From the NCBI GenBank assembly GCA_025617745.1, contig CM046853.1:875501-939500 (forward strand): a DNA stretch of 64,000 nucleotides, given 5' to 3'. Shown in pieces: positions 14,115 through 64,000 of the stretch. Each line of letters opens with the position of its first letter. Position 1 is the stretch's first letter. The DNA is from Heliocidaris erythrogramma (Eukaryota > Echinodermata > Echinoidea > Camarodonta > Echinometridae). A program made the position numbers and the translations under genes. The notes under the pieces are model-generated. The model was not told the DNA's origin. It saw only the letters and a list, made by a program, of their open reading frames with translations, and did no database searches.

Positions 14115-14286
14115 CTCGTTATCTTTATTTCTCTACATTTTTCTGTTATTTTTTAATACGTTTTGTAATCGTTTGTTTGTTCCTCTATCATATGGATCAT
14201 TAGGTTGATGGCCGAATAGAAATCATTGCCAAGAAAACACTGATAGGGAGAAAAAAATAATAGAGAAGAGAGATGGGATGAGAGAG

Positions 14287-14381
14287 TGAGTAAGAATGAG
14301 AGAGGGAGAGAGAGAGAGGGGAGAGAGCGAGAGGGGGAGGGGGTAGAGAGCGAAGGGGAGGGGAGGAGGAGGAGGAAGCAG
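14287..14381 (+). repeat. Polypurine GA/GGA tract
   Basis: Purine-only GAGAG and GGAGG repeats, with one GA unit fewer than the matching tract at 58545-58641. The opposite strand gives a Pro/Leu/Ser-rich open frame that is not a gene. Confidence 0.85.
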
Positions 14382-14964
14382 GGAGGAACGGTATTCTATT
14401 GTAACGCCATTATAAATTGGCGCCTCTATCGTCGAGTTGCACGGTCCTATGTCTACAACGCCTCTGTGTCTGATGTTGAGATAAAAATATACTCTCTGTA
14501 GCCTCAAAATGTCAGGTTGTCTAAACATAGGACGGGGAGAAGCTAGGGATATGTCTCACAATCTTCTTCATATATCGGAATATTGGATAGGGTCATGGTA
14601 AAACTACTGTGTTTAGTGAACGCATAGAAATACATCTGCAAGGCTTGCATCAAAATTACCATTTTGCCTGATTTAAGTCCATATTTGAGGAGTAACATGA
14701 GAACTCTAAATGTAACCATATCGAAAATTGTAGTTGAATGATCCATTCATTATTGTGCATTATAACTAAAACGACGACCTCATTCACTAGACTCAGTCTA
14801 AACATGATGTGCACCATCTCCAAACCCTCCGGTATATTTGTATTCCTTCTCATCATTGTGTGCATCATAAACTTCTTGATTTTAGAAGATTACCATTCAT
14901 AGATATTTTATTTTTATCTACATGTAATCCTCAACCTCAACCTCAATTCTCATCTTGCTCCTAG

Positions 14965-15000
14965 TTCTCTCTCTCTCTCTCTCTCTCTCTCCCTCCCTCA
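14965..15000 (+). repeat. (CT)n microsatellite
   Basis: Near-perfect CT dinucleotide run, repeated identically in copy 2 at 59225-59260. Confidence 0.9.
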
Positions 15001-18000
15001 ATCTCCCTCACCCTCCTCATTCTTTCCCTTTCCCTCATCTTTTTGTCTTTTTAACATGTTACTATTTACTTTCTATTTCTTTGTATTATAACATTACTTT
15101 GGGATTACCCTCGATAAGCCTCTTTGGCTTTTGGTAATCACTCCATATTCGATTATTATATATGTTGTTCTTTTTTCCTTATTGTCAATCGTCACAAAAT
15201 GTATTTTTATCATGCTTGTAATTTGTTCTCGTTTGTATTTGTTCATGTTGTTTTTATCTTTTTAATTTGAATATGGAAATAAATGAAATGAAATAAAATG
15301 AAATGAATACATTATAATTCATTATCCAAGTATATAAAGGGCAGTGTAAAATTCCTGATATCAAAAGTAATCACACCCAGTGGCAAAATATCTTTCTCTA
15401 CCAGTCACTGTAAGGATGATATGAGGTATTTAATTTTACCTTTTCATTCCGATGAGAACCGATCTTTATCTCATGTCACGTGGTCTATTCTTCCAAACAC
15501 AATTCAACATCTGTCATTAGAAACCTCGGTCTTAACGGACACCTCCCAGCCTATACACAAAATAAGCAACATTTATTTGCTTTCTCTTTGGCGAAATAAT
15601 GTGCATTTAGCATCTTACTTCATCAAAAATCTCCGTCAACATATCTTTTTTTTTCCACGAAGGAACATGAATTGCCAGTGCCTAAAATTTGAGACAAATA
15701 ACATCTCTCATAATGTCTTATACTGGATCAATAATAGCATTATGAACTAGATCTTTCAAATTGAGGCATAATGTAAAGCTCCGGCATTCATGTCTACATG
15801 AGGCAGTTTCAGCGTATAGATTTCACATTCGCTATACGTCAGGCGATGCATTCAAAGGAATGAATGAAAATTACTCTTAATTGTATTTTGGATGGGTACA
15901 GGTGTGTCCTTCTAGCCATGTTATGAAGACTATTGACTTTTAATTGCTTTATCACCTTTAGGTCTGTTACTATAAATGGGTTATATGGTGACCCTATGGG
16001 GAAAACTAATCAAGAAGATGGAGGGCATATCAAATTAACGTTAAAGCCCTTGTCGAGTGATGGCAGTAAGCCCAAAAATTTATTGTAAAAGTTCTGTTAT
16101 CTCTTCTTCGTAAACAATAATACTATGCAGCCCTGACGACTGCTTTTTGTAGTTGAAAAATATGAAATTAGTTCTTTTTCCTTCTATTTTCTTTGCTTGT
16201 TTGCTGGGTTGTTTGTTTTGTGGATAATTTTTAGATGATACAATTTTGCCTATGAAACATAATACGTGATGACATTGTAATTCCTTGTTTTTATTATAGA
16301 GGTTAATACTTTACATGACCTTTGAGATATATTTATGTTCACTGAGTAGTGAGTATTTTTTTTTTGAAATATATATCTGCCGATATTCTACCCCTCATGT
16401 GATTGGGCGGCTAGTATGTGCGAAAGTGATGTAATAATTATAGTCAGCCTTTCTGGATACACAATTCAACTAAGACAGCTTTCGCTGTGATACGTTCAAC
16501 GTTAAAATGAAGGAATACACATCAGATTTCTATCAAAACCTTACAATATCATCCTATGGTACAGGTACACATACCATCCATTCATCTCTCTGGTATCCAA
16601 CCGCGTACAGTCAAATCAAAATAAAAGACTATCAACAAAACTTCACTATCTATTTCAGCATGAATAATTCATTGAAGTTTAGGCGATTTTTTAGTTTGCC
16701 ACTTCCCGTGAAACACTCAATGGTTATGAAATTTGAGCTTTTTGCAATGTACATAAATCCCATTTTGTAATGGAGAACGTGTTACATGGTATATCTTCAT
16801 CTATTTAGAATGCAAAGCATTCCATTTTTTACTGAAAGTTGAGATGGAGTTTCCAATAGGTTTTCACTGGAGTGAATATTTCAATAATAAGAACATATAA
16901 TCTCATTTTCACCACTCGTATGGTTAAAAGAAGTTAATGATTTTAGTTGATGATGTTTATCATGGTTCAATGAGACCATGTGTATAGGAAAGTTCTGTCA
17001 AAATGGAAATGTAAGCTTATTTTCTTTCAACATCACCTTTATTCTTAACAAAAGGAAATACATAAATTCAAGGTTACTTGTGGTTCAGGACTATAACATT
17101 GAAAGACTTATATTGCAGAATATAACAAGACGTAAAATATACATAAATATACATAAAAAATTGTGTTTTTTTTTGCACTTATTTTTTTTGAGTGTGGATT
17201 CAGTAGATATTAAACCTATCATATCTTCTTTTCAATTCACTACTATTATTATGCACATTTGAATTTGATGGTTTGACGTTTTAACGTTAAATGAAAAATG
17301 GTAAGTAACTGAATAAGATATCAAATTGTATATACAAGCATGTATGTTAATACTCTTGGGAACTGAGGAAAAAATTAAGATGATAAAGTAGGAGAACTTG
17401 TAAGAAAAGTAAAAGAAAAGGGGAAAAGAAAAAGAATATTGAATGCAAATAAGTTTTCATGAGCCAAGATGTAATACATTTTGTATACACTTCACATACA
17501 TGAAATGCTTCTTATTGATTAAAAACTTCAATACTTGCAATTATTAATAAACAAGTCACATCTTTGTTCAAGATTTTTTTCGGTCACCATTATAAAGTGG
17601 TCTTCCATGTGCCCTGCAAAGAAATCATACGGAGTGAAAATGCAGAAGTTATTAAATTTTGAAAACAGTCATAATTACAAATTGTCCTCAGTGATTGTGC
17701 ATTCTAAGACAAATACAAAATTGCATGCAAAGAGAGAATATGAATTACAAGTAGTGATGCGTATAGTGAATATAAATAACTGTTATCTAAATCAATGTTT
17801 TATCAGTAAATAATACTGACCTCTTTCGGTCTGCAAGGGAAAGATACCGAACAAAACACAAGAATAAGTGAGCATACTTTGTATCATAAATTAACTCCAG
17901 ACAATATCACATTTGAGTTACCATCGACAGATGAATGGCATATATTTCGGGTGGCTGATGAACTTCCGGGTCAATTCATTGCTATATTGTTAGTGTCATA

Positions 18001-18365
18001 TCTCAAGCGATTGTAATTCTACTACTACAACCTACTTGCAAGTGAAACAGAATGCTTCCCGAGATCCTTTACCTTGGGAATAAAAGGGTGTTATTCTCAG
18101 TCAAGTTTACCTCACTTAACTTCAGTTTGTATGACTAGGGTTAAGCAAATGTGGAAGACTAGACATTGTGACCCAAATGCATTGAATGAGAGCTGGATGA
18201 GAGGATGAGCATCTATCTACGTGTCTGCTAGGGGATGGACATTACAAGATCACAGTGATGTAGATCCAGGAACCTAGAAGCTAGGGAAGCATAGGGATTC
18301 TGCAGCATTCTCTGGTTATTTTCAGGCGCACTAAAGATAAATCATCAGCAAGTACATTGCAAAGT

Positions 18366-18443
18366 ACAGAGGGGGTTTTATCTTTCGGGGGATTTTCGGA
18401 CTTTTGCCCCCTCTCCGGTCAGAAAATTCTGGATCCGCCTCTG
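18366..18443 (-). mobile_element. hAT-like MITE remnant, one terminus
   Basis: Reading the minus strand from 18443 gives CAGAGGCGGATCCAGAATTT, the terminal motif of the hAT-like MITEs here, followed by a G-rich interior. The partner terminus was not found, so the other boundary is approximate. Confidence 0.5.
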
Positions 18444-19736
18444 GTGTAGCATGACTCTCTACTATTAGCACCCCAACGAATAGAAAAATCAATCCCAGTG
18501 CCTTGTGTAGATCTAGATAGCCATGTGTTTTAGTATTTTGGTTTTTGTGTTTTTTAAATATAATATTGCATTACCGAAGTCATATGTTTATAAGGTATTT
18601 TGAATTTGTTTTCAATTTACATATATATGTAGATGGGATTGCTATAAATTTGATCTTGAGTTGAATGAATGTGTTAATACATAATACATTATGTTACAGA
18701 GCATGGACCTGGGGAGCTGGGGTGCTACGGGAGTTGCTTGTCACATAAGTGAAAAGGACCCCTCAGCACCAAACTGAAAAGAATTATCTCAGGTTCCTTT
18801 TGCCGAGGGCAGTTTGCAATCAATCATTTTCTTTATATTGCTTATCTCACCAACTGTGAGTAAGAATTCATTCAAATATATATAACGGGGAAATAAACAT
18901 GGGTTATCATTTCAGTCAGCATATACATGTAATAGAGTTGGTTTTACATGCCAATCATTTTCATCATTCCATGTAATTCTTTATTCTACATCTGTATTTA
19001 TCTTCGTCACATCATACCTTTTATATGCAATTCTCTGGCTTAGCGTCGTCTCTTAAGAGTTAGTGTCTGCAACACTGAATGTTATATAGTATATTGTGTC
19101 CATATTCTTTGACTTCACACAGCTCTTTTCTATTTACGGAAATAAATCGTGCTTGTATTTAGCAAGGATAGTGTCTCATGGATAATATATTGGTATGACA
19201 TTTAGATAATGAAGGTTTATTATGTTTATTAAAACCACTGCGTTCGGAAACAAGATATTGAATTAATGGATATAAAAAAGATGTCTCATTAAAATACGGC
19301 ACGGCCCAAGGGATACTGAACAAAATAATGTCTCCTTAAATTTACATACATTTACTATACTTACCTTCTTATGCAGCACTCACATTAAAAAGAATGCTCA
19401 ATGAGCATGATCAGTCGATAAATATGTAATGTCTGTCTTGTTCCAAAGACTATAAATATACTTTGTTTTTGTAAGAACATTTCTGATAAAAGTTTAAAAG
19501 CATCATTTGTTGGAAATTTTTAAGGTGAAGTGAGATTTTTAGCATATCGAACCACAGGGTACTAGCTCGTGATTGAGATATAACCGACATCAATTCCATT
19601 TCTGAAGAAAGAACTTTTTGAAACTGTGCATGGTTTGATGTATGGTCTACCATATATCTTTCTATACTCAGTTTCTCCTGGTTCTCCAATATATCATACA
19701 CGGTGTTCGATTTTTTTTAAATTGTAAATGATGCTC

Positions 19737-29117: not shown

Positions 29118-30790
29118 TTAAAGGCTTCAGCCATGAAGGTGTTTAAACTACGACATGTATTTAGCACATGGTATCTGATAACTTAAACTACGACATGTAT
29201 TTAGCACTGGTACACTCTTAAAAATGCGGGGTCGCATATTGCGTGGTCGAATTTATTCGACCACGTTTCGGGGTTGTTTTCGATCAATAATGCTCCCGCT
29301 GCATTAAAATGACCAGTTTTTGCGTGGTCAAAATGACCACGCAAAAACTGGTCATTTTATGACCACGCAAAAACTGGTCATTCTAATGCACTCTAAAAAA
29401 GGACTGGTCAAAAAATGTACTAATGCGATTGGTCAACACCATATGGGTTATTTCCCAAAATATGTTGGTCACAATGTTCCAATTTCACTGGTTAATCACT
29501 AACCATTTGAAATATTGCTTATTCATCAGCAAAGTATTGGTCCGACTTCTACTTGGTTAAACGTTGGGCCATTGTCATGAATATTCATGATGTATCCTGA
29601 ATACCCATGAGCAACCGTAAACAACCAGAATTTATATATATAAATGACACTTGATTTTTAAGTTTTTATGCAATGATTGCACTTTGAAATGTGATGAAAA
29701 ATGTATGTATACTAATTATTATGTTGTACATATTCAAACATGTAATTAGGTTTAAGATCTAAAAATCTACATTAGAAAATTAAATTAAAATCTTTAACCA
29801 CTTTTAGCAAGCACTGCAATACAGTCCCTATATAATAAAGTAAAGGTTTTCAGGATATATAGGTATAGGATAGGTATAGGATGTAGGACTATAATAGGAG
29901 TAGGGTTAAAGTAGGATGATAGGTGTATGATATGCTATACGATAGGTGAGGATAGGTTATAGGTCATAGTGAGCAAAATATACAAAATATGTTATGTTAT
30001 GATATTACTTGACATTAGCTTCTTTTTTTTAATCTTTGAAACGTGGATGGTGCACGCGCATCTGGCAGAAGTATCAACCCCGTCCGACGGGAAATGACCA
30101 CGTTGCGTGGTCGGAAGAAATGACCCCGTACGTTTTGACGGGGTTATAAGGTAATGATCATTAGTATGCATGCGGGGTCAAATTATGCGGGGTCAAGTTA
30201 TGCAGAAATGACCACGCAATCGTGGTTAAATTTTGACCACATTCGGGGTCGAAATGTAACCACGCTATGTGGTTACTTTGGGTGACCCCGCACGGGGTTT
30301 GTGCATAGTTGATCCCGCATGCGGGGTCATTTGTAACCCCGTTTGGGGTTATTTTTGACCACGCATTTTTAAGAGTGTATCTGATAACTGAAACTACGAC
30401 ATGTATACTGGCATCTGATAACTTAAACTACGACATGTATTTAGTACTGGTATCTGATAACTTAAACTACGACATGTATTTAGTACTGGCATCTGATAAC
30501 TTAAACTACGACATGTATTTAGTTCTGGTATCTGATAACTTAAACTACGACGTGTATTTAGCACTGGTATCTGATAACTTAAACTACGACATGTATTTAG
30601 TACTAGTATCTGATAACTTAAACCACGACATGTATTTTAAAGGCTTCAGCCATGAAGGTGTTTAAACTGCGACATGTATTTAGTACTGGTATCTGATAAT
30701 TTAAACTACGACATGTATTTAATACTTTTATCTGGTAACTTAAACTATGAAATGTATTTTGTACTGATATCTGATAACTTCACATCTAAC
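29118..30790 (+). repeat. 39-bp minisatellite, split by a transposon
   Basis: The unit is a 39-mer containing TATCTGATAACTTAAACTAC and GACATGTATTTAGTACTGG. About two units lie left of the transposon (29140-29212) and about ten right of it (30378-30790). A variant unit carrying AAAGGCTTCAGCCATGAAGG in place of the TCTGATAAC part occurs at about 29118 and 30638, so the array has some higher-order structure. Because 39 is a multiple of 3, a 13-residue peptide repeat (SDNLNYDMYLVLV type) stays open at 30309-30665; this is expected of the repeat and is not evidence of a gene. Confidence 0.9.
29213..30377. mobile_element. 1,165-bp non-autonomous DNA transposon, TA target
   Basis: Terminal inverted repeats read CACTCTTAAAAATGCGGGGTC (left) and GACCACGCATTTTTAAGAGTG (right). 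TA at 29211-29212 and at 30378-30379 flanks the ends; removing the element and one TA restores the CTGGTATCTGATAAC of the minisatellite unit, so this is a clean insertion. Both subterminal regions are crowded with GACCACG/CGTGGTC and GGGGTC/GACCCC motifs in both orientations, as expected of transposase-binding repeats. A hairpin-forming stretch at about 29308-29385 has alternating copies of TGACCAGTTTTTGCGTGGTC. An inner CACTCTAAAAAAGG (about 29391) suggests a related element end captured inside. A loose ATAGGT-type repeat lies at about 29857-29970. No transposase. Superfamily: TA target and the CACT end suggest a Tc1/mariner-like relative, not proven. Confidence 0.85.
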
Positions 30791-33650: not shown

Positions 33651-33729
33651 ACAAGCGTAATGAAAATACATTTCACATATAATATGTTATAATTTTGTCA
33701 TACACTCTAAATATCGTATCTATGTCTTT

Positions 33730-34520
33730 ATGCCTCCGCCCATCGAAGGTGGGTGCCGGAGGTATTATGTTTTCGGGTTGTCCGTCCGTCCGTCCGTCCC
33801 ACTTCTCGTTACCGCGATATCTGAAGAATCATTTGAGGTAGCAACCTCAAACTTGGTACTAGTATTTATCCCCATACGAAGATGAACTGATTAGATTTTG
33901 GGGTAAGTAGGTCAAAGGTCAGAGGTCACAGAGGTCAATTTACATGAAATTACATGGAATTCTTGGTTTTTAGCACCGTTACCGCGATTTTTGAAGAACT
34001 GTTTGAGGTAAGAACTTCAAACTTGGTACCAGTATGTATCCCCATAGAAAGAGGAACTGATTAAATTTTGGGGTAGGTAGGTAAAAGTTCAGAGGTCACA
34101 GAGGTCAGTTTACATGAAATTACATGGAATTACTGGTTTTTAGCACCGTTACTGCGATATCTCAAGAACTATCTGAGGTGAGAACTTCAAACTTGGTACC
34201 AGTATGTATCCCCATAGAAAGAGGAACTGATTAGAATTTGGGGGTAAGTAGGTCAAAGGTCACAGGTTGCAGGTCTCAGCGGCCAATTTACATGATATTA
34301 ATACAGTTTTTGGCTACATTTCCACGATATATCAAGACCACCTCATTATATTGCTTTATAGTCAGAGGTCAATTAGTAATATAGGATTTTAGTCTTTTAA
34401 ATCACAATTTCGCAATAACCATTTGATGAATGCGCATCAACTATATTATACTTGTAGGTGATCAGGAATTATCTGAATACAAGCGGAGGCATATTGAAGG
34501 CGCAGTCGTATCTTGTTTTA
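33730..34520 (+). repeat. GCCTCCGCC-bounded repeat element with 170-bp tandem units
   Basis: Starts TATGCCTCCGCCCATCGAAG, with a short hairpin to GGTGGGTGCCGGAGG, then (CCGT)n. It then carries tandem units starting near GTTACCGCG at 33808, 33978 and 34148 (170-bp period) and a degraded fourth near 34315. It ends near AAGCGGAGGCATATTGAAGG (about 34482). The element resembles one widespread in marine invertebrates (memory). No protein is encoded. A reverse-strand relative occupies 43320-45680. Each unit carries AGGTCA-type half-sites; see the separate entry. Confidence 0.8.
33909..33937 (+). promoter_or_regulatory. Candidate nuclear-receptor direct repeats (AGGTCA x4)
   Basis: Four AGGTCA half-sites lie at 33909-33914, 33916-33921, 33923-33928 and 33932-33937. 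The spacings are 1, 1 and 3 bp, that is DR1, DR1, DR3. DR1 is the known preference of HNF4, RXR and COUP-TF type receptors. Degraded versions recur in the next two units (about 34079-34110 and 34249-34285). Binding is inferred from motif only; the repeat may carry it by descent without function. Confidence 0.4.
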
Positions 34521-40427: not shown

Positions 40428-41914
40428 ACCAAGATATACTTCCATACAAAGTCTGACAGAAATCCGTCAAGAAATGTGACCGCTAGAGCACACACTTGAA
40501 TGTTGCTGAATCCAAAGCATCCTCCGGCATACTGCCGGGGGATACAATTAAACAAACCATCTTTTTTTAAGGTTACTTGACCATGCAACAGACCACAGAA
40601 TAAAAAAATATTCATTTAACGGAACGGGCTTGCCCTGTGAATATGCAGCAAGTTGCTGTCACCTCTGCTGTTTCCTTCAATGATAAATTTCCAGATCACA
40701 ACTTTCCTGCAAAATCTATGTTATGGCGAACGATAAGAAAATATCAGCAGGGAGGGGCAAGGGTCTATGTTAAGAAGGGTCTATGTTAAGAAGGGTCGAT
40801 CTGGTCGAAGTACAGTTGCCATTTCAGAAGAGAATGTGGCAGAAGTAGGGCATGTCATCCATCAGAATACCTAATCCGTAATTTTCTGCCTTTTTATACC
40901 CCAAGTCCCCAAAACAAAGAAATTATTCATTATGATAGAAAGGTTATGCCATGAAATCACGTTTCCTCTTCTGTAGGACACACTGTGTAGTAATAAAACT
41001 ACACATTTCCTTGTCCGACCAAAAATTACATAACAAACATAACAGCATGACAGTCAGGACACTGTCATTGCGCTCCTTTGAAACCTGTATGGTTTCTTTT
41101 GAACATTCAATGGCTATTATCAACCTCATAATGTAAACTTTGTTCGATTCATGAGAATTTAAAACTGCAAAATCACTACAAAAATATTTAAGGTTGAAAG
41201 AATGATACTCAAAGTATGATTTGACCAAACCGGCTCCCACATTTGCTGTGGTCGTCAGCTTATTGGTTTGACAGTAAATATGGCGTGGCAACAAGACATT
41301 TTTTTGAGCTATTGCCCATCTTATGTTTCTTGGCAAGTACACATTTACATGAAATTGCCAAAATTTTTACAAAGAAATTTTATGATGTACATGTAATTCT
41401 GCACAATTTGCAGTATCAGTTCAAAAATGGCAAACTAACTGGAATGTGCTGTAACAGGCTACTTATAATTTCCCAGTCTGATTCCTGTTCTGCTGCACTA
41501 TGTCTCTTTGTTCATTGGTCAACACACTGGCAGATCAAAAGTACCAGAGAAGAACCTTGGTGACCATCTTATAATATAATACACTAAGGATTTCAGGCTC
41601 TTTTTTTTGTTCAAATAGGCTCCCCTGGCTCTTTCGGTCCCCGCATTTTGGTACCCACGGGTGGGGAAGGGTTCTTAGGGTGGTGGGAGGCACTTCTTGA
41701 GGGCTGACGTCCCGTCCATATTTCATAAATTCATTTTTAAACAATGAATTTCCGCAGGGAGTAGGCCTAATAATTCCACCAACCCATGAAGCGGGTTTGT
41801 AGCTTCAGCGAGAATTTTTTTTCGTCAGACCTAGAAAATTCGCTCAGGAGGGGGTGGTTATGGGGTCCCTCCATAATTCTCTGACAAGCAAAAAAAAGAA
41901 GGTTTCATTCTAAA
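40428..41914. other. Gene-free DNA, nothing recognised
   Basis: A short direct repeat GGGTCTATGTTAAGAA occurs twice at about 40769-40801. The 132-codon minus-strand frame at 40944-41342 has no recognisable domain. A hairpin-capable G/C-rich stretch lies at about 41630-41700. Confidence 0.45.
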
Positions 41915-43319: not shown

Positions 43320-43964
43320 GAAGCTTCGACCGCGCGCGGTCGGAATTTATGCCTCCGCCATCACCAGATTGGAAATGTATGGCATACAAGTACATGTACA
43401 CTCTAAAAAGGATTGGTCCAACAAAATGACAAATCTTTTCACTTAAAATGCACAGGAGACAGAAAATTTATTTCATTTCATTTTCATATAAAAGACTTAC
43501 CATTAATGACTTACAATCATTAAATACACCAAGGAAATAGATATTTTATAGTAAATAAACCACTGTCCCCTAGAAATTTCTAAAATAGGTAGGCCTAGAC
43601 TCATCACAAACCATTTTTATGTATATAATGACCTCTATGACCTTTGAACTTTGACCTTGAGACCCTAAAATCTAATCAGTTCATCGTCCCTCACATATGC
43701 ATACGGCTTGTCTCGAATGGGTGGGGTGCGGGAGCGGGAACGGGCACACCCTTTCGAGACAAGCCCCCCCCGGTTATCTCGAATGGACGCGTTCCCAGCG
43801 AGAAGTTCAATGAACGCGCCACTTCGAGACAACCGGGGGGGCTTTCCTCGAATGAGTGTGTTGAGTAGACTTTTGTAATAGACGTTTTAGAATTTTTTTG
43901 GAAAAATGTACTCTTGCTGGTTTTTTCGTTTTTCTTTTGTCTAAGATGTAGAAAATATAACCGG

Positions 43965-44175
43965 CAGTGGCGGCACCAGGATTTTTAAAGTGGGGTGGGG
44001 GGGGGGGGAGGGCAAATGGGGGGCAAAAGAAATTGTTGGGGGCAAGGGCGGACAAACAAAATTGTCCACCCTTTTATTTTTTTCACTCCGAAAATTATTG
44101 GGGGCAACTGGGGGGCAAAGCTTCTGACTGGGGGGCAAATGCCCCCCCCCTCCATGCCCCCCGGTGCCGTCACTG
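43965..44175. mobile_element. hAT-like MITE nested in the long-TIR transposon
   Basis: Ends CAGTGGCGGCACCAGG and, reversed, CAGTGACGGCACCGGGG. The 8-mer ATAACCGG flanks both sides (43957-43964 and 44176-44183), a perfect hAT-type duplication. G- and C-rich interior with repeated GGGGGCAA. It lies at the inner edge of the left arm of the host element, so it inserted later. The Pro-rich open frames across it are composition only. Confidence 0.9.
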
Positions 44176-44466
44176 ATAACCGGGGGTTGTCAAATGAATG
44201 TATGAGGTTGCATGAATTCATAATGGAATGTTCATTTAAAATTTAAAGGTCTGGTCGGGCAGACAGTCCAGAATAGAATGTTAATTCACTGCGGCGTATT
44301 TTTTTTCACAGGGGGAGGCACAAGATGGCCATGCCCCACCCCTTATTGGTGGGTGAGTAAGAAAATAGGAAGTTGAATGAGGAAGATGAAAAAATATTCC
44401 CAGGAAAATGTAAATAGGGGTCAATTTTCGCAGACTCTGGTGGTTTCCTCCCCGGGGATAGGTGGG

Positions 44467-44482
44467 GGGGGGGGGGGGGGGG
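44467..44482. repeat. poly(G) tract in a GGGGATAGGGGGT-rich stretch
   Basis: A G run within about 44440-44580, where degenerate CCCCGGGATAGGGGGT units repeat about four times. This is interior sequence of the 1,534-bp transposon. Confidence 0.7.
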
Positions 44483-45323
44483 TTAATTTCCTAAATTGCC
44501 TGGATAGGGGGTCCAATATCTCAGAAAATTCCCCGGGATAGGGGGTAAAACAAATTCCAACTTCTCCGGAATAGGGGGTCACTTTTGAAAAGGAGTTACG
44601 AGCATAGGCCTACCCCTTGTATGGGGAGTTGGGGGCCGGGTACAAACGACCTTTTGATATGAGTTTTGACTTTTGATAGTGGGTATTGATAGAATGATAG
44701 TGGCATTAAAAGGTGTTTCTAACTTTGGAAAGATGATAAACACACCTTGGCTTATGTCAGCACATGTCTGTAACACAATTTCACAATATTTAACAGGTCA
44801 CGCCAAAAAAAATAAAAATAAATTAACAATCCTAGCTACGCCACTTGCCCTTTCTTCCCCGTGTGTTTTAATGCATAATTATTCAATTCTCCTATTTATT
44901 TTGCACAAATAATGATTTCCTTGTCAAAAGCATTTTTAGATACCGTTTTTTTTATATTTTCTACATCTTAGACAAAAGAAAAAACGAAAAAACGAAAAAA
45001 AACCAGCAAGAGTACATTTTTCAAAAAAAATTCTAGCACGTCTGTTACAAAAGTCTACTCAACACACCCATTCGAGGAAAGCCCCCCCGGTTGTCTCGAA
45101 GTGGCGCGTTCATTGAACTTCTCGCTGGGAACGCGTCCATTCGAGATAACCGGGGGGCTTGTCTCGAAAGGGTGTGCCCGTTCCCGCTCCCATCCCGCTC
45201 CCATCCCGCTCCCGCACCCCACCCATTCGAGACAAGCCTATGCATACATGGGCCAAGTTAGAAGCTGATCGGCCAAACAGTTCCTAAGTTAATTGCGAAA
45301 AATAACCATTTTTATGTATATAA

Positions 45324-45345
45324 TGACCTCTGTGACCTTTGACCT
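45324..45345 (-). promoter_or_regulatory. Candidate nuclear-receptor direct repeats (TGACCT x3)
   Basis: TGACCT at 45324-45329, 45333-45338 and 45340-45345, spaced 3 and 1 bp (DR3 then DR1 on the complementary strand). The next unit has TGACCT at 45468, 45484 and 45491, the last pair again DR1. The split first unit has similar sites near 43630-43660. Motif-based only. Confidence 0.4.
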
Positions 45346-45908
45346 TGAAACCCCAAAATCGAATCAGTTCATCGTACCTCCCATATGCATACATGGGCCA
45401 AGTTACAAGCTGATCCGCCAAACGGTTCCTAAGTTATCACAAGAACGAACCATTTTTATGTACATAATGACCTCTACGATCTTTGACCTTTGACCTTGAG
45501 ACCCCAAAATCTAATCAGTTCATCATCCCTCCCATATGCATACATGAGCGTAGTTACACGCTGATCCGCCGAACGGTTTTCAAATTATCACGAGAACGAA
45601 AAGGGGATGGACGGACGGACGACCCGAAAACATAATTATGCCTCCGGCACCACCTACGGTGGGCGGAGGCATAATAAAACCACAAGCCTTAGGCAGATAT
45701 CAGTGTTAGAGTAATCATTTCAGGATAAACATGAATGTATCTGTCTGCCCATTACATGACAATAGCCTAGAATACTAGAATACTAATCATTCAAACTGTC
45801 TGTACAAAAAAAAAAATTGCGATATTTTATCTTTTCAGTATCATTAAACATATATGGGTATGCCCGATGGGGAAGGTTGACAAATGTCAGTTTTAACTAT
45901 AGCACTCA

Positions 45909-45909
<1 letters not shown>

Positions 45910-45943
<34 letters not shown>
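45910..45943. repeat. poly(G) tract, about 34 nt
   Basis: Longest homopolymer in the window; its real length is uncertain because such runs are poorly called. It could form G-quadruplexes. The Gly-rich open frame through it is not a gene. Confidence 0.9.
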
Positions 45944-45944
<1 letters not shown>

Positions 45945-46097
45945 ACAGTCCGAGTACATGTACATGTATCCCCCGAACCTGTCACCCATCTCCCATTTGA
46001 ATCAATTTGAAATGGATAAAGTGGCAATTTGGGACCTCAGGTATCACTGCTGACAAATTTGACCTTTTTGTACTTTTGTCATTTTTTAGTTGTTTTG

Positions 46098-47035
46098 AAA
46101 TTGAAGGTGATCTGACAAAAACTTTTAAAAATTTCTTTAAAAAATAAGGTTACCATGGCAACGATGACTCCACCCACACCAAAAACAATAGGCGTTTTCA
46201 TCTTACCATAATGCACCACCATATGCGAAATATGAAGATGATCCGACAAGAACTGCAGCCGGTAGAATGCTCACAAGAAAGTCTTTACCTTTTTCTTTAA
46301 AAAATAAGGTTACCATGGCAACGATGACTCCACCCACACCAAAAACAATAGGCGTTTTCATCTTACCATAATGCACCACCATATGCGAAATATGAAGATG
46401 GTCCGACAAGAACTACTACTCTTTTTAAAGAAAGTCTTTACCTTTTTCTTTAAAAAATAAGGTTACCATGGCAACGATGACTCCACCCACACCAAAAACA
46501 ATAGGCATTTTCATCTTACCATATTGTACCTCCATGCAAAATTTGACGGTGATCCGACAAAAACTGCAGCCGGTACAGCACTCACAAGACAATCTTTACT
46601 ATTTCTTTAAAAATATGGTTACCATGGCAACCATGTCGACCCCGCCCACACCAAAAACAATAGGTGTCTTCATCTTACCATATTGCACCTCCGTGCAAAA
46701 TTTGAAGGTGATCCGACAAAAACTGCAGCCGGTAGAGCGCTCACAAGAAAATCTTTACCATTTCTTTAAAAAATATGGTTACCAGGGCAACAATGTCGAC
46801 TCCGCCCACACCAAAAAAAATAGGCGTCTTCATGTTACCATAATGCACTTCCACGTAAAATTTGAAGGTGATCCCACAAGAACTGCAGCCAGTAGAGCGC
46901 TCACAAGAAAATCTTTAATACTATTTCTTTAAAAATATGGTTACCATGGCAACCATGGCAACCATGTCGACCTCGCCAACACCAAAAACAATAGGCATCT
47001 TCATCTTACCATAATGCACCTCCATGCAATGGTTA
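46098..47035 (+). repeat. Tandem array, about six 152-162 bp units
   Basis: Units start at GGTTACCATGGCAAC near 46148, 46309, 46461, 46617, 46777 and 46939, preceded by a partial unit from about 46098. Each unit runs through ACTCC(A/G)CCCACACCAAAAAC, AATAGGCG, CATCTTACCATAATGCACC, GAAGATGATCCGACAAGAAC, TGCAGCCGGTA and CTCACAAGAAA. The last unit stops after the CACCTCCATGCAATGG segment. Unit lengths are not all multiples of 3, so the 154-codon frame at 46468-46932 is open by chance plus repetition. The GATCCGNCAA...CACAAGAA part resembles the 144-bp units at 45306-45590. Confidence 0.92.
46149..46953. promoter_or_regulatory. Candidate RFX X-boxes, one per repeat unit
   Basis: GTTACCATGGCAAC, a near-palindromic match to the RFX X-box (GTTGCCATGGCAAC type), occurs exactly at 46149, 46310, 46462, 46618 and 46940. 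At 46778 it is changed to GTTACCAGGGCAAC. The motif is better conserved than much of the surrounding unit. RFX factors are known regulators of ciliary genes in animals; there is no evidence here of binding or of a target gene nearby. Confidence 0.45.
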
Positions 47036-47222: not shown

Positions 47223-47470
47223 CAGTAACCTCGAATAAGTGACCGCCGTGAATTTGGTCACATATTCGATAGTCAACCTGTGAAGTTAGAACTAGAAGCA
47301 TATTAGGTATATTCAAATTAAACAGGTTTTTATGGCTACACCGTGCAGGGTCCAGTCCAGCAAGATGCTTCTACTTAGTTCTCAGTTCTAGTTCTAACTT
47401 CACAAGTTGAATATCGAATATCGAATATCATATGTGACCAACTTCATGCCGGTGAATAAATGTGAGGCGT
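47223..47470. mobile_element. Pogo/Tigger-like MITE, degenerate
   Basis: The left end TA|CAGTAACCTCGAATAAGTGACC resembles pogo/Tigger termini (CAGTNNAACCTCG type, from memory). The right part is an imperfect inverse: TTGGTCACATAT...TTCGAT...TGTGAAGTTAGAACTAGAA recurs reversed at about 47390-47450 with an expanded ATATCGA repeat. The extreme right end is degraded and no TA is certain there. Non-coding. Confidence 0.55.
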
Positions 47471-58372: not shown

Positions 58373-58544
58373 CTCGTTATCTTTATTTCTCTACATTTTT
58401 CTGTTATTTTTTAATTACGTTTTGTAATCGTTGTTTGTTCCTCTATCATATGGATCATTAGGTTGATGGCCGAATAGAAATCATTGCCAAGAAAACACTG
58501 ATAGGGAGAAAAAAATAATAGAGAAGAGAGATGGGATGAGAGAG

Positions 58545-58641
58545 TGAGTAAGAATGAGAGAGGGAGAGAGAGAGAGAGGGGAGAGAGCGAGAGGGGGAGG
58601 GGGTAGAGAGCGAAGGGGAGGGGAGGAGGAGGAGGAAGCAG
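58545..58641 (+). repeat. Polypurine GA/GGA tract (copy 2)
   Basis: Counterpart of 14287-14381 with one more GA unit. Confidence 0.85.
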
Positions 58642-59224
58642 GGAGGAACGGTATTCTATTGTAACGCCATTATAAATTGGCGCCTCTATCGTCGAGTTGC
58701 ACGGTCCTATGTCTACAACGCCTCTGTGTCTGATGTTGAGATAAAAATATACTCTCTGTAGCCTCAAAATGTCAGGTTGTCTAAACATAGGACGGGGAGA
58801 AGCTAGGGATATGTCTCACAATCTTCTTCATATATCGGAATATTGGATAGGGTCATGGTAAAACTACTGTGTTTAGTGAACGCATAGAAATACATCTGCA
58901 AGGCTTGCATCAAAATTACCATTTTGCCTGATTTAAGTCCATATTTGAGGAGTAACATGAGAACTCTAAATGTAACCATATCGAAAATTGTAGTTGAATG
59001 ATCCATTCATTATTGTGCATTATAACTAAAACGACGACCTCATTCACTAGACTCAGTCTAAACATGATGTGCACCATCTCCAAACCCTCCGGTATATTTG
59101 TATTCCTTCTCATCATTGTGTGCATCATAAACTTCTTGATTTTAGAAGATTACCATTCATAGATATTTTATTTTTATCTACATGTAATCCTCAACCTCAA
59201 CCTCAATTCTCATCTTGCTCCTAG

Positions 59225-59260
59225 TTCTCTCTCTCTCTCTCTCTCTCTCTCCCTCCCTCA
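59225..59260 (+). repeat. (CT)n microsatellite (copy 2)
   Basis: Identical in length to the tract at 14965-15000. That is unusual for independent copies of a dinucleotide repeat. Confidence 0.9.
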
Positions 59261-62200
59261 ATCTCCCTCACCCTCCTCATTCTTTCCCTTTCCCTCATCT
59301 TTTTGTCTTTTTAACATGTTACTATTTACTTTCTATTTCTTTGTATTATAACATTACTTTGGGATTACCCTCGATAAGCCTCTTTGGCTTTTGGTAATCA
59401 CTCCATATTCGATTATTATATATGTTGTTCTTTTTTCCTTATTGTCAATCGTCACAAAATGTATTTTTATCATGCTTGTAATTTGTTCTCGTTTGTATTT
59501 GTTCATGTTGTTTTTATCTTTTTAATTTGAATATGGAAATAAATGAAATGAAATAAAATGAAATGAATACATTATAATTCATTATCCAAGTATATAAAGG
59601 GCAGTGTAAAATTCCTGATATCAAAAGTAATCACACCCAGTGGCAAAATATCTTTCTCTACCAGTCACTGTAAGGATGATATGAGGTATTTAATTTTACC
59701 TTTTCATTCCGATGAGAACCGATCTTTATCTCATGTCACGTGGTCTATTCTTCCAAACACAATTCAACATCTGTCATTAGAAACCTCGGTCTTAACGGAC
59801 ACCTCCCAGCCTATACACAAAATAAGCAACATTTATTTGCTTTCTCTTTGGCGAAATAATGTGCATTTAGCATCTTACTTCATCAAAAATCTCCGTCAAC
59901 ATATCTTTTTTTTTCCACGAAGGAACATGAATTGCCAGTGCCTAAAATTTGAGACAAATAACATCTCTCATAATGTCTTATACTGGATCAATAATAGCAT
60001 TATGAACTAGATCTTTCAAATTGAGGCATAATGTAAAGCTCCGGCATTCATGTCTACATGAGGCAGTTTCAGCGTATAGATTTCACATTCGCTATACGTC
60101 AGGCGATGCATTCAAAGGAATGAATGAAAATTACTCTTAATTGTATTTTGGATGGGTACAGGTGTGTCCTTCTAGCCATGTTATGAAGACTATTGACTTT
60201 TAATTGCTTTATCACCTTTAGGTCTGTTACTATAAATGGGTTATATGGTGACCCTATGGGGAAAACTAATCAAGAAGATGGAGGGCATATCAAATTAACG
60301 TTAAAGCCCTTGTCGAGTGATGGCAGTAAGCCCAAAAATTTATTGTAAAAGTTCTGTTATCTCTTCTTCGTAAACAATAATACTATGCAGCCCTGACGAC
60401 TGCTTTTTGTAGTTGAAAAATATGAAATTAGTTCTTTTTCCTTCTATTTTCTTTGCTTGTTTGCTGGGTTGTTTGTTTTGTGGATAAATTTTTAGATGAT
60501 ACAATTTTGCCTATGAAACATAATACGTGATGACATTGTAATTCCTTGTTTTTATTATAGAGGTTAATACTTTACATGACCTTTGAGATATATTTATGTT
60601 CACTGAGTAGTGAGTATTTTTTTTTTGAAATATATATCTGCCGATATTCTACCCCTCATGTGATTGGGCGGCTAGTATGTGCGAAAGTGATGTAATAATT
60701 ATAGTCAGCCTTTCTGGATACACAATTCAACTAAGACAGCTTTCGCTGTGATACGTTCAACGTTAAAATGAAGGAATACACATCAGATTTCTATCAAAAC
60801 CTTACAATATCATCCTATGGTACAGGTACACATACCATCATCATCTCTCTTTATCTCTGTATCCAACCGCGTACAGTCAAATCAAAATAAAAGACTATCA
60901 ACAAAACTTCACTATCTATTTCAGCATGAATAATTCATTGAAGTTTAGGCGATTTTTTAGTTTGCCACTTCCCGTGAAACACTCAATGGTTATGAAATTT
61001 GAGCTTTTTGCAATGTACATAAATCCCATTTTGTAATGGAGAACGTGTTACATGGTATATCTTCATCTATTTAGAATGCAAAGCATTCCATTTTTTACTG
61101 AAAGTTGAGATGGAGTTTCCAATAGGTTTTCACTGGAGTGAATATTTCAATAATAAGAACATATAATCTCATTTTCACCACTCGTATGGTTAAAAGAAGT
61201 TAATGATTTTAGTTGATGATGTTTATCATGGTTCAATGAGACCATGTGTATAGGAAAGTTCTGTCAAAATGGAAATGTAAGCTTATTTTCTTTCAACATC
61301 ACCTTTATTCTTAACAAAAGGAAATACATAAATTCAAGGTTACTTGTGGTTCAGGACTATAACATTGAAAGACTTATATTGCAGAATATAACAAGACGTA
61401 AAATATACATAAATATACATAAAAAATTGTGTTTTTTTTTGCACTTATTTTTTTTGAGTGTGGATTCAGTAGATATTAAACCTATCATATCTTCTTTTCA
61501 ATTCACTACTATTATTATGCACATTTGAATTTGATGGTTTGACGTTTTAACGTTAAATGAAAAATGGTAAGTAACTGAATAAGATATCAAATTGTATATA
61601 CAAGCATGTATGTTAATACTCTTGGGAACTGAGGAAAAAATTAAGATGATAAAGTAGGAGAACTTGTAAGAAAAGTAAAAGAAAAGGGGAAAAGAAAAAG
61701 AATATTGAATGCAAATAAGTTTTCATGAGCCAAGATGTAATACATTTTGTATACACTTCACATACATGAAATGCTTCTTATTGATTAAAAACTTCAATAC
61801 TTGCAATTATTAATAAACAAGTCACATCTTTGTTCAAGATTTTTTTCGGTCACCATTATAAAGTGGTCTTCCATGTGCCCTGCAAAGAAATCATACGGAG
61901 TGAAAATGCAGAAGTTATTAAATTTTGAAAACAGTCATAATTACAAATTGTCCTCAGTGATTGTGCATTCTAAGACAAATACAAAATTGCATGCAAAGAG
62001 AGAATATGAATTACAAGTAGTGATGCGTATAGTGAATATAAATAACTGTTATCTAAATCAATGTTTTATCAGTAAATAATACTGACCTCTTTCGGTCTGC
62101 AAGGGAAAGATACCGAACAAAACACAAGAATAAGTGAGCATACTTTGTATCATAAATTAACTCCAGACAATATCACATTTGAGTTACCATCGACAGATGA

Positions 62201-62631
62201 ATGGCATATATTTCGGGTGGCTGATGAACTTCCGGGTCAATTCATTGCTATATTGTTAGTGTCATATCTCAAGCGATTGTAATTCTACTACTACAACCTA
62301 CTTGCAAGTGAAACAGAATGCTTCCCGAGATCCTTTACCTTGGGAATAAAAGGGTGTTATTCTCAGTCAAGTTTACCTCACTTAACTTCAGTTTGTATGA
62401 CTAGGGTTAAGCAAATGTGGAAGACTAGACATTGTGACCCAAATGCATTGAATGAGAGCTGGATGAGAGGATGAGCATCTATCTACGTGTCTGCTAGGGG
62501 ATGGACATTACAAGATCACAGTGATGTAGATCCAGGAACCTAGAAGCTAGGGAAGCATAGGGATTCTGCAGCATTCTCTGGTTATTTTCAGGCGCACTAA
62601 AGATAAATCATCAGCAAGTACATTGCAAAGT

Positions 62632-62709
62632 ACAGAGGGGGTTTTATCTTTCGGGGGATTTTCGGACTTTTGCCCCCTCTCCGGTCAGAAAATTCTGGAT
62701 CCGCCTCTG
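62632..62709 (-). mobile_element. hAT-like MITE remnant (copy 2)
   Basis: Same remnant as 18366-18443, carried in the duplicated segment. Confidence 0.5.
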
Positions 62710-64000
62710 GTGTAGCATGACTCTCTACTATTAGCACCCCAACGAATAGAAAAATCAATCCCAGTGCCTTGTGTAGATCTAGATAGCCATGTGTTTTAGT
62801 ATTTTGGTTTTTGTGTTTTTTAAATATAATATTGCATTACCGAAGTCATATGTTTATAAGGTATTTTGAATTTGTTTTCAATTTACATATATATGTAGAT
62901 GGGATTGCTATAAATTTGATCTTGAGTTGAATGAATGTGTTAATACATAATACATTATGTTACAGAGCATGGACCTGGGGAGCTGGGGTGCTACGGGAGT
63001 TGCTTGTCACATAAGTGAAAAGGACCCCTCAGCACCAAACTGAAAAGAATTATCTCAGGTTCCTTTTGCCGAGGGCAGTTTGCAATCAATCATTTTCTTT
63101 ATATTGCTTATCTCACCAACTGTGAGTAAGAATTCATTCAAATATATATAACGGGGAAATAAACATGGGTTATCATTTCAGTCAGCATATACATGTAATA
63201 GAGTTGGTTTTACATGCCAATCATTTTCATCATTCCATGTAATTCTTTATTCTACATCTGTATTTATCTTCGTCACATCATACCTTTTATATGCAATTCT
63301 CTGGCTTAGCGTCGTCTCTTAAGAGTTAGTGTCTGCAACACTGAATGTTATATAGTATATTGTGTCCATATTCTTTGACTTCACACAGCTCTTTTCTATT
63401 TACGGAAATAAATCGTGCTTGTATTTAGCAAGGATAGTGTCTCATGGATAATATATTGGTATGACATTTAGATAATGAAGGTTTATTATGTTTATTAAAA
63501 CCACTGCGTCGGAAACAAGATATTGAATTAATGGATATAAAAAAGATGTCTCATTAAAATACGGCACGGCCCAAGGGATACTGAACAAAATAATGTCTCC
63601 TTAAATTTACATACATTTACTATACTTACCTTCTTATGCAGCACTCACATTAAAAAGAATGCTCAATGAGCATGATCAGTCGATAAATATGTAATGTCTG
63701 TTTGTTCCAAAGACTATAAATATACTTTGTTTTTGTAAGAACATTTCTGATAAAAGTTTAAAAGCATCATTTGTTGGAAATTTTTAAGGTGAAGTGAGAT
63801 TTTTAGCATATCGAACCACAGGGTACTAGCTCGTGATTGAGATATAACCGACATCAATTCCATTTCTGAAGAAAGAACTTTTTGAAACTGTGCATGGTTT
63901 GATGTATGGTCTACCATATATCTTTCTATACTCAGTTTCTCCTGGTTCTCCAATATATCATACACGGTGTTCGATTTTTTTTAAATTGTAAATGATGCTC

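Follow-up and report, generated by a model that had tools for sequence, protein, structure and literature searches.

What is a tandem array that carries the X-box, the motif recognised by RFX factors, in each of its units, and how did the motif come to be there? This question is raised by a locus in a stretch of 64,000 nucleotides from Heliocidaris erythrogramma (contig CM046853.1 of assembly GCA_025617745.1, positions 875,501 to 939,500, forward strand), the whole of which is referred to here as the window and used for all coordinates. The array, denoted element C, is best interpreted as the central repeats of a non-autonomous rolling-circle element of the Helentron type (HINE, DINE-1-like) that has since decayed, a reading to which we assign a probability of about 0.7. 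As an element, the array appears ordinary; what makes it interesting is the position of the motif in the unit, a slot that apparently is exchangeable between related repeats.

The X-box array and its motif

The initial annotation described a tandem array with an X-box in every unit, and this description holds: about six units in head-to-tail orientation, with a period of 153-162 bp, occupy positions 46098-47035. Successive motifs are 160, 153, 156, 160 and 162 bp apart, and TRF calls a repeat at 46131-47029 with a period of 160 and 5.6 copies. On the left side, a unit fragment reaches out to approximately 46098 whereas, on the right side, the array stops in mid-unit at approximately 47035. All motifs are on the + strand, and the reported count of five exact copies and one variant is likewise correct, with GTTACCATGGCAAC found five times and GTTACCAGGGCAAC at 46778, in unit 5, where the departure is confined to the spacer between the half-sites. 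In units 4 and 6, the near-palindrome around the motif is as long as 20 bp if a single mismatched pair is allowed.

The identification of the motif as an X-box is well founded given that both half-sites are intact in all six units and that each unit fits the restricted RFX-site consensus RTNRCC N1-3 RGYAAC, which comes from the available part of PMC2375033. A search with the motif pattern, allowing up to two mismatches on both strands, yields 12 matches in the window, a number not reached in any of 100 shuffled windows. The strict X-box form, GTTRCCATGGYAAC, is not found elsewhere in the window even with one mismatch allowed; the restricted consensus also fits four places in the window outside the array motifs. 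In 20,000 dinucleotide shuffles of unit 4, treated as circular, there is one occurrence of the strict form, compared with 89 of the restricted form and 4313 of the most degenerate one, but these chance figures are too favourable because the motif family was chosen after looking at the sequence and the many recognisable motif families are uncorrected for. The motif arose once and was then copied, so that the six copies, all derived from a single founding unit, count as one event.

Conservation inside the array was scored over the 100 alignment columns in which none of the six units has a gap; 28 of these columns are variable. The 14 motif columns hold only one of the 47 minority letters, and the 12 half-site columns contain no changes; random sets of 14 and 12 columns are equally clean with frequencies of 0.03 and 0.0145, respectively. 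Alignment columns are not independent, however, and contiguous windows give a milder picture: of 87 windows with a length of 14 columns, 7 equal the motif in cleanness, counting the motif and the window displaced from it by one column, and for a 6+2+6 half-site mask the same holds for 4 of 87 placements, again counting the one on the motif. The backbone blocks ACACCAAAAA, AATAGG and TTACCATA are likewise invariant across the units. Good preservation is therefore not peculiar to the motif, and the earlier statement that the neighbouring parts of the units vary more is valid on average but not for these three blocks. Because the units of an array can homogenise, conservation within it does not separate selection from copying.

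Two other interpretations of the array were considered. A stop-to-stop frame of 167 amino acids covers about three units (46429-46932), but a coding repeat is rejected because the motif spacings are not all multiples of 3 and the sole Pfam match of the frame, Nsp1_C, is below the curated cut-off (E 0.0062, 16.8 versus 24.1 bits). An RNA gene is rejected as well: no Rfam family reaches the gathering threshold and no tRNA is found in the window.

Probable affiliation with Helentron-type elements

HINEs typically contain subterminal inverted repeats (subTIRs) of about 11-15 bp and insert in TT or T-rich sites without target duplication. In the literature, they are described as holding short satellite-like arrays between terminal modules and as being mobilised by the Rep/helicase of a partner element. 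The window contains two better-preserved elements of this kind, A and B, and a fragment, F40, with which the X-box array can be compared (Table 1).

Table 1. Coordinates of the X-box array, its related elements and their terminal features in the window
Feature	Coordinates	Strand	Remarks
Element C, tandem array of about six units, each with an X-box	46098..47035	+	both ends cut inside a unit at about the same phase
X-box, unit 1	46149..46162	+	GTTACCATGGCAAC, exact
X-box, unit 2	46309..46322	+	GTTACCATGGCAAC, exact
X-box, unit 3	46462..46475	+	GTTACCATGGCAAC, exact
X-box, unit 4	46618..46631	+	GTTACCATGGCAAC, exact
X-box, unit 5	46778..46791	+	spacer variant GTTACCAGGGCAAC; still fits RTNRCC N1-3 RGYAAC
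X-box, unit 6, with 9-bp duplication	46940..46962	+	GTTACCATGGCAAC; the duplication adds a second CCATGGCAAC
Candidate subTIR of C, left (RF-like) end	45965..45975	+	11-mer TGTATCCCCCG
Palindrome TACATGTACATGTA	45955..45968	.	14 bp; overlaps the candidate subTIR of C by 4 bases
Fragment F40	40429..40546	+	X-type unit segment 40429-40500, then hairpin end ~40517-40545 with TGTATCCCCCG; cut by an assembly gap
Element A, HINE-like	33728..34494	+	LF hairpin and (GTCC)n 33728-33806; RF subTIR 34484-34494
Element B, HINE-like	43347..45674	- (LF to RF; units read on +)	subTIR TTATGCCTCCG at both ends
LF of B	45604..45674	-	subTIR, complementary inverted repeat (hairpin), (GTCC)n microsatellite
Palindrome CGACCGCGCGCGGTCG	43327..43342	.	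16 bp, perfect, 4 bp from the RF subTIR of B

Elements A and B show the set of HINE features, namely, subTIRs, a hairpin in the terminal module denoted LF, a (GTCC)n microsatellite and, eroded in A, a palindrome in the opposite module, RF, and hence conform to the published HINE architecture. The subTIR TTATGCCTCCG is located at 33728 (+) and 34484 (-) in A and at 43347 (+) and 45664 (-) in B; three of these four ends are exact and the one at 34484 has a single mismatch. With up to one mismatch, there are five matches to this sequence in the window, the fifth being the inverted repeat of the hairpin in B, and none of 100 shuffles reaches five. The LF hairpins yield folding z scores of -2.47 (A) and -5.15 (B) against shuffles, a (GTCC)n tract follows each of them, and the two LFs align across 85 columns. 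In the RF of A, beyond the mismatched subTIR, an eroded counterpart of the CGACCGCGCGCGGTCG palindrome of B is aligned. The units of A (170 bp, 33807-34267, read on the - strand) and B (151 bp, at 43606-43705 and 45239-45600) are clearly related, with a z score of 44.6 and 0 of 300 shuffles as good. The array of B is split in two by a DNA transposon of 1.53 kb inserted at 43706-45238, whose terminal inverted repeats measure about 220-240 bp and whose target duplication, TATGCATAC, is 9 bp long. Satellite-like central tandem repeats, as expected of HINEs, are present in all three elements, with spacings of 153-162 bp in C and periods of 151 in B and 170 in A. No Rep/helicase protein was detected among the 8 window open reading frames (ORFs) scanned with Pfam, out of 25 long ORFs listed.

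The units of the X-box array (X-type units) align with those of B on one strand, the reverse-complement scores being ordinary. The matched blocks include ACACCAAAAAC-AATAGG with ACCCCAAAATCGAATCAG, then TTCATC, GATCCG-CAA and TCACAAGAA, as far as the A/T-rich stretch that precedes the motif, and the printed alignments with B (unit pairs u4-5 and u1-2, and the whole array) are all in the same phase. As controls, 354 segments of the window were scored in both orientations, giving 708 in total, with the arrays, F40 and gaps left out. The pairs u1-2, u2-3 and u3-4 outscore all of them, and u4-5 outscores 706; none of 300 shuffles matches the score of u4-5, and the two real segments that do overlap each other at one A/T-rich place. 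These comparisons suggest that, outside the motif slot, the X-type unit is probably homologous, in phase, to the unit of B. The global multiple alignment of all units is noisy, with gaps poorly placed at the slot, so the homology is based on local alignments.

Fragment F40 provides a connection to a terminal module. Its first 72 bases score above all 708 controls when compared with each of the four unit pairs tried (u1-2, u2-3, u3-4 and u4-5, out of five pairs), and this comparison shows that F40 and the X-type unit are homologous. The unit segment is followed by a hairpin (folding z score of -2.70 against shuffles) whose outer arm includes the 11-mer TGTATCCCCCG; no microsatellite was seen in this hairpin end. 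The 11-mer is found in exact form at only two places in the window, 40536-40546 (minus) in F40 and 45965-45975 next to the array, 122 bp to its left and inverted relative to the units, which is the strand and the side expected for the opposite end of an element. In controls, 4 of 100 shuffled windows contain at least two matches with up to one mismatch, and 6 of 2466 control segments (300 bp, overlapping, both strands) share at least 11 bases with the F40 arm. The core GTACATGTAC of the palindrome at the candidate end of C recurs inside B, at 43390. The order RF - units - LF relative to the direction of the units agrees in A and B and, where it is preserved (one end each), in C and F40. A run of 35 G occupies positions 45909-45943, immediately to the left of the candidate end of C.

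Several observations weigh against this affiliation. No LF is recognisable to the right of 47035: when the 300-bp right flank is compared with the ends of F40, B and A, as many as 262, 405 and 404, respectively, of 414 controls are as good. Similarly, the left flank of C is unlike the RF of B or A, with 281 and 396 of 625 controls as good; both sets of flank controls come from the + strand and exclude only segments containing N. The candidate subTIR has no partner around C with up to one mismatch. The palindrome of C overlaps the subTIR, which is not the case in B, and in neither element does the palindrome next to the subTIR have a folding energy superior to that of shuffled sequence (z scores of -0.40 for TACATGTACATGTA in C and 0.40 in B). 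Among the unit comparisons, u5-6 is only weakly similar to B (53 of the 708 controls as good), and the comparison of X-type units with those of A is not significant (113 to 456 of the 708 controls as good), so the homology to A can be traced only through B. The element either is truncated, or has a decayed right end, or is not a HINE at all; because this end was not found, its membership in the class is probable only. Nested inverted repeats at 47242-47453 (36 nt at 94% and 24 nt at 88% identity) form a MITE-like hairpin about 200 bp to the right of the array.

The missing pair of complete ends is the principal point in favour of an ordinary local minisatellite or satellite with no tie to any mobile element. 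Such an origin seems unlikely given that the unit is homologous to F40, which has a HINE-like end, and probably to the unit of B, and that the terminal 11-mer recurs beside the array. Under the HINE interpretation, we infer that the array belongs to an element that once moved. The X-box-bearing unit would have arisen within a HINE lineage and would have been multiplied by unequal exchange or in the course of rolling-circle transposition; with units multiplying and homogenising inside the array, one X-box would become six, and the array would since have decayed in place.

Origin and possible role of the X-box

The position of the X-box in the X-type unit corresponds to the place where the units of B and A contain TGACCT, which we take to be a nuclear-receptor half-site. 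Of the 52 such half-sites in the window, 17 fall in these two arrays (8 in the units of A and 9 in those of B), several of them spaced by 7 or 9 bp. Conversely, there are no sites of the restricted RFX consensus in A and B. The relatives seem to share a repeat backbone and to carry different protein-binding motifs in the same, apparently exchangeable, slot.

Whether the X-box has a role in its slot is a separate issue. The initial annotation proposed that the array could act as an enhancer, a decoy or a nucleosome-phasing element, or that the motif simply was part of the ancestry of the repeat. The match to the X-box stands and, among these options, ancestry is the best supported one because the array is probably part of a mobile element, and the relatives of that element, A and B, lack sites of the restricted consensus. 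That the near-palindrome was present in the founding unit by chance and multiplied along with it, without a binding role, which amounts to the HINE interpretation without function, has roughly even odds. A single origin accounts for all six copies, the backbone blocks in which no motif is recognised are equally invariant, and the restricted consensus has four additional occurrences in the window and is present in 89 of the 20,000 shuffled units. Against such an account stand the rarity of the full strict site by chance and the repeated, well-known half-site in the corresponding slot of A and B, which would have to be a coincidence.

A true regulatory array, in which RFX binds the six X-boxes and the enhancer, decoy or phasing element is under selection, is compatible with an origin from a HINE but appears improbable. 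The preservation of both half-sites in all six units, with the frequency of 0.0145 for 12 random columns, and the single occurrence of the strict X-box among the 20,000 shuffled units, together with its absence from the rest of the window, speak for it, as does the over-representation of palindromic X-boxes in dRFX-regulated genes described in the accessible part of PMC2375033. These arguments lose weight considering that four of the 87 mask placements are equally clean and that homogenisation makes conservation weak evidence, that the chance figures are too favourable and the most degenerate consensus is found in 4313 shuffled units, and that A and B have no site of the restricted consensus. 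In addition, the same source indicates that an upstream X-box alone does not predict dependence on dRFX and, according to the part available of PMC5838959, X-boxes distant from transcription starts are probably functional only in exceptional cases.

Rolling-circle replicons often use repeated binding sites, and the near-palindrome of up to 20 bp in units 4 and 6 might accordingly be an iteron-like site that is bound by the Rep of the element itself or aids replication or amplification. This is the least probable alternative: A and B have direct repeats of half-sites in the slot instead, and the X-box stretch folds no better than shuffles in the two units tried (z scores of 1.15 and -0.44), which also led us to reject a hairpin role for the motif.

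Going by its letters, the motif in the array is a candidate site for RFX; binding in vivo has about one chance in four, and a benefit of the array to the host would be less likely still. If RFX does bind, the most likely role would be a local one, with six evenly spaced sites (153-162 bp) opened in RFX-rich cells, for example, ciliated or male germ cells; the latter are named because RFX2 is the subject of papers on spermatogenesis (PMC2797782 and PMC4498915, as far as their available text goes). A bolder and, in our estimate, improbable extension of the HINE interpretation is that Helentron-type elements of this animal might have one backbone with an exchangeable slot for host factors, with an X-box in one lineage and tandem nuclear-receptor half-sites in others. 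The arrays would then recruit the respective factor, perhaps so that the element stays open in germ cells or in the early embryo, and ready-made clusters of nucleosome-spaced sites would be scattered over the genome by these families.

Comparable known elements and implications

The closest described systems are similar to the window elements in architecture. In the Pacific oyster, according to the accessible portion of PMC7492417, the LF of Cg_HINE elements consists of a subTIR, a complementary inverted repeat and microsatellites (GTCY, GTCC or GTCK in several elements), the arrays contain few units, predominantly of 140-180 bp, and the RF combines a subTIR with a palindrome. Elements A and B share with them the LF-units-RF order, the GTCC-type microsatellite and the constant orientation of units and ends. 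Furthermore, some oyster families share only some unit blocks (CL4 with group 1), as seems to be the case for the families in the window. Unlike Cg_HINE, the X-box element shows only one candidate end, and factor motifs in the units are not mentioned in that portion of the oyster description. DINE-1 and other HINEs of Drosophila, mites and other animals have much the same architecture as those of the oyster, and DINE-1-like elements are reported in sea urchin and molluscs in the part available of PMC4067079, where the Tsp elements of sea urchin (Cohen, Liebermann and Kedes 1985) are cited in this context. Provided that the host is the echinoderm named in the record, the Tsp elements, known here by citation only, may be the nearest published relatives.

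A precedent for the spread of factor sites by elements comes from ISX/ISY of Drosophila miranda, which are helitron-derived, spread chromatin-factor sites (MSL complex) and show gene conversion among copies (PMC4384637, available part). The factor is different, and function was proven by experiment in that case, whereas the X-box array is known from sequence alone. In the literature on RFX or X-boxes in combination with repeats, transposable elements or Helitrons, X-boxes in tandem repeats or Helentrons are not described among the matches listed, as judged by titles and the beginnings of abstracts. Unit fragments searched as letters gave no match in the literature, and the letters of the motif matched only works on pre-eclampsia and Drosophila IDH2, as far as the matched text shows, which we take for chance or primer matches. 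A pattern scan of genome contigs produced 13 matches, all bacterial by title, and BLAST of two units against these 13 contigs with a cut-off of E 1 found only short alignments, 21 to 52 columns in length, that are taken for chance, the best one (E 0.002) being that of the unit of B on L008, over 44 columns at the pattern. Scans of viral contigs gave one match, inside an ORF of a contig (L014) without similarity to the window at E 0.01. These misses say little because the scanned collections are viral and prokaryotic and contain no animals.

Other features of the window include a direct duplicate, 14115-19736 and 58373-64000, which spans 5633 alignment columns at 99.7% identity with 0 mismatches and 11 gap openings, the copies being about 44 kb apart; either the segment was duplicated recently or the assembly is at fault, for example, through haplotypes that were not collapsed. 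A 39-bp tandem array with 10.4 copies is located at 30377-30780, with a related separate piece at 29143-29212, about 1.2 kb away. The ORF at 137-1141 contains an RNase H domain (Pfam RNase_H, E 2.3e-10) and probably represents the end of a non-LTR retrotransposon.

With this affiliation, a single odd array becomes a testable family: if there are many copies in the genome, each of them independently tests whether the X-box persists longer than the remainder of the unit. Should related families indeed differ by the factor site in their slot, clusters of regulatory sites could originate and be dispersed through the short satellite-like arrays of Helentrons; should the slot idea prove false, the locus would illustrate well that one motif, when duplicated in tandem, can mimic a designed regulatory array.
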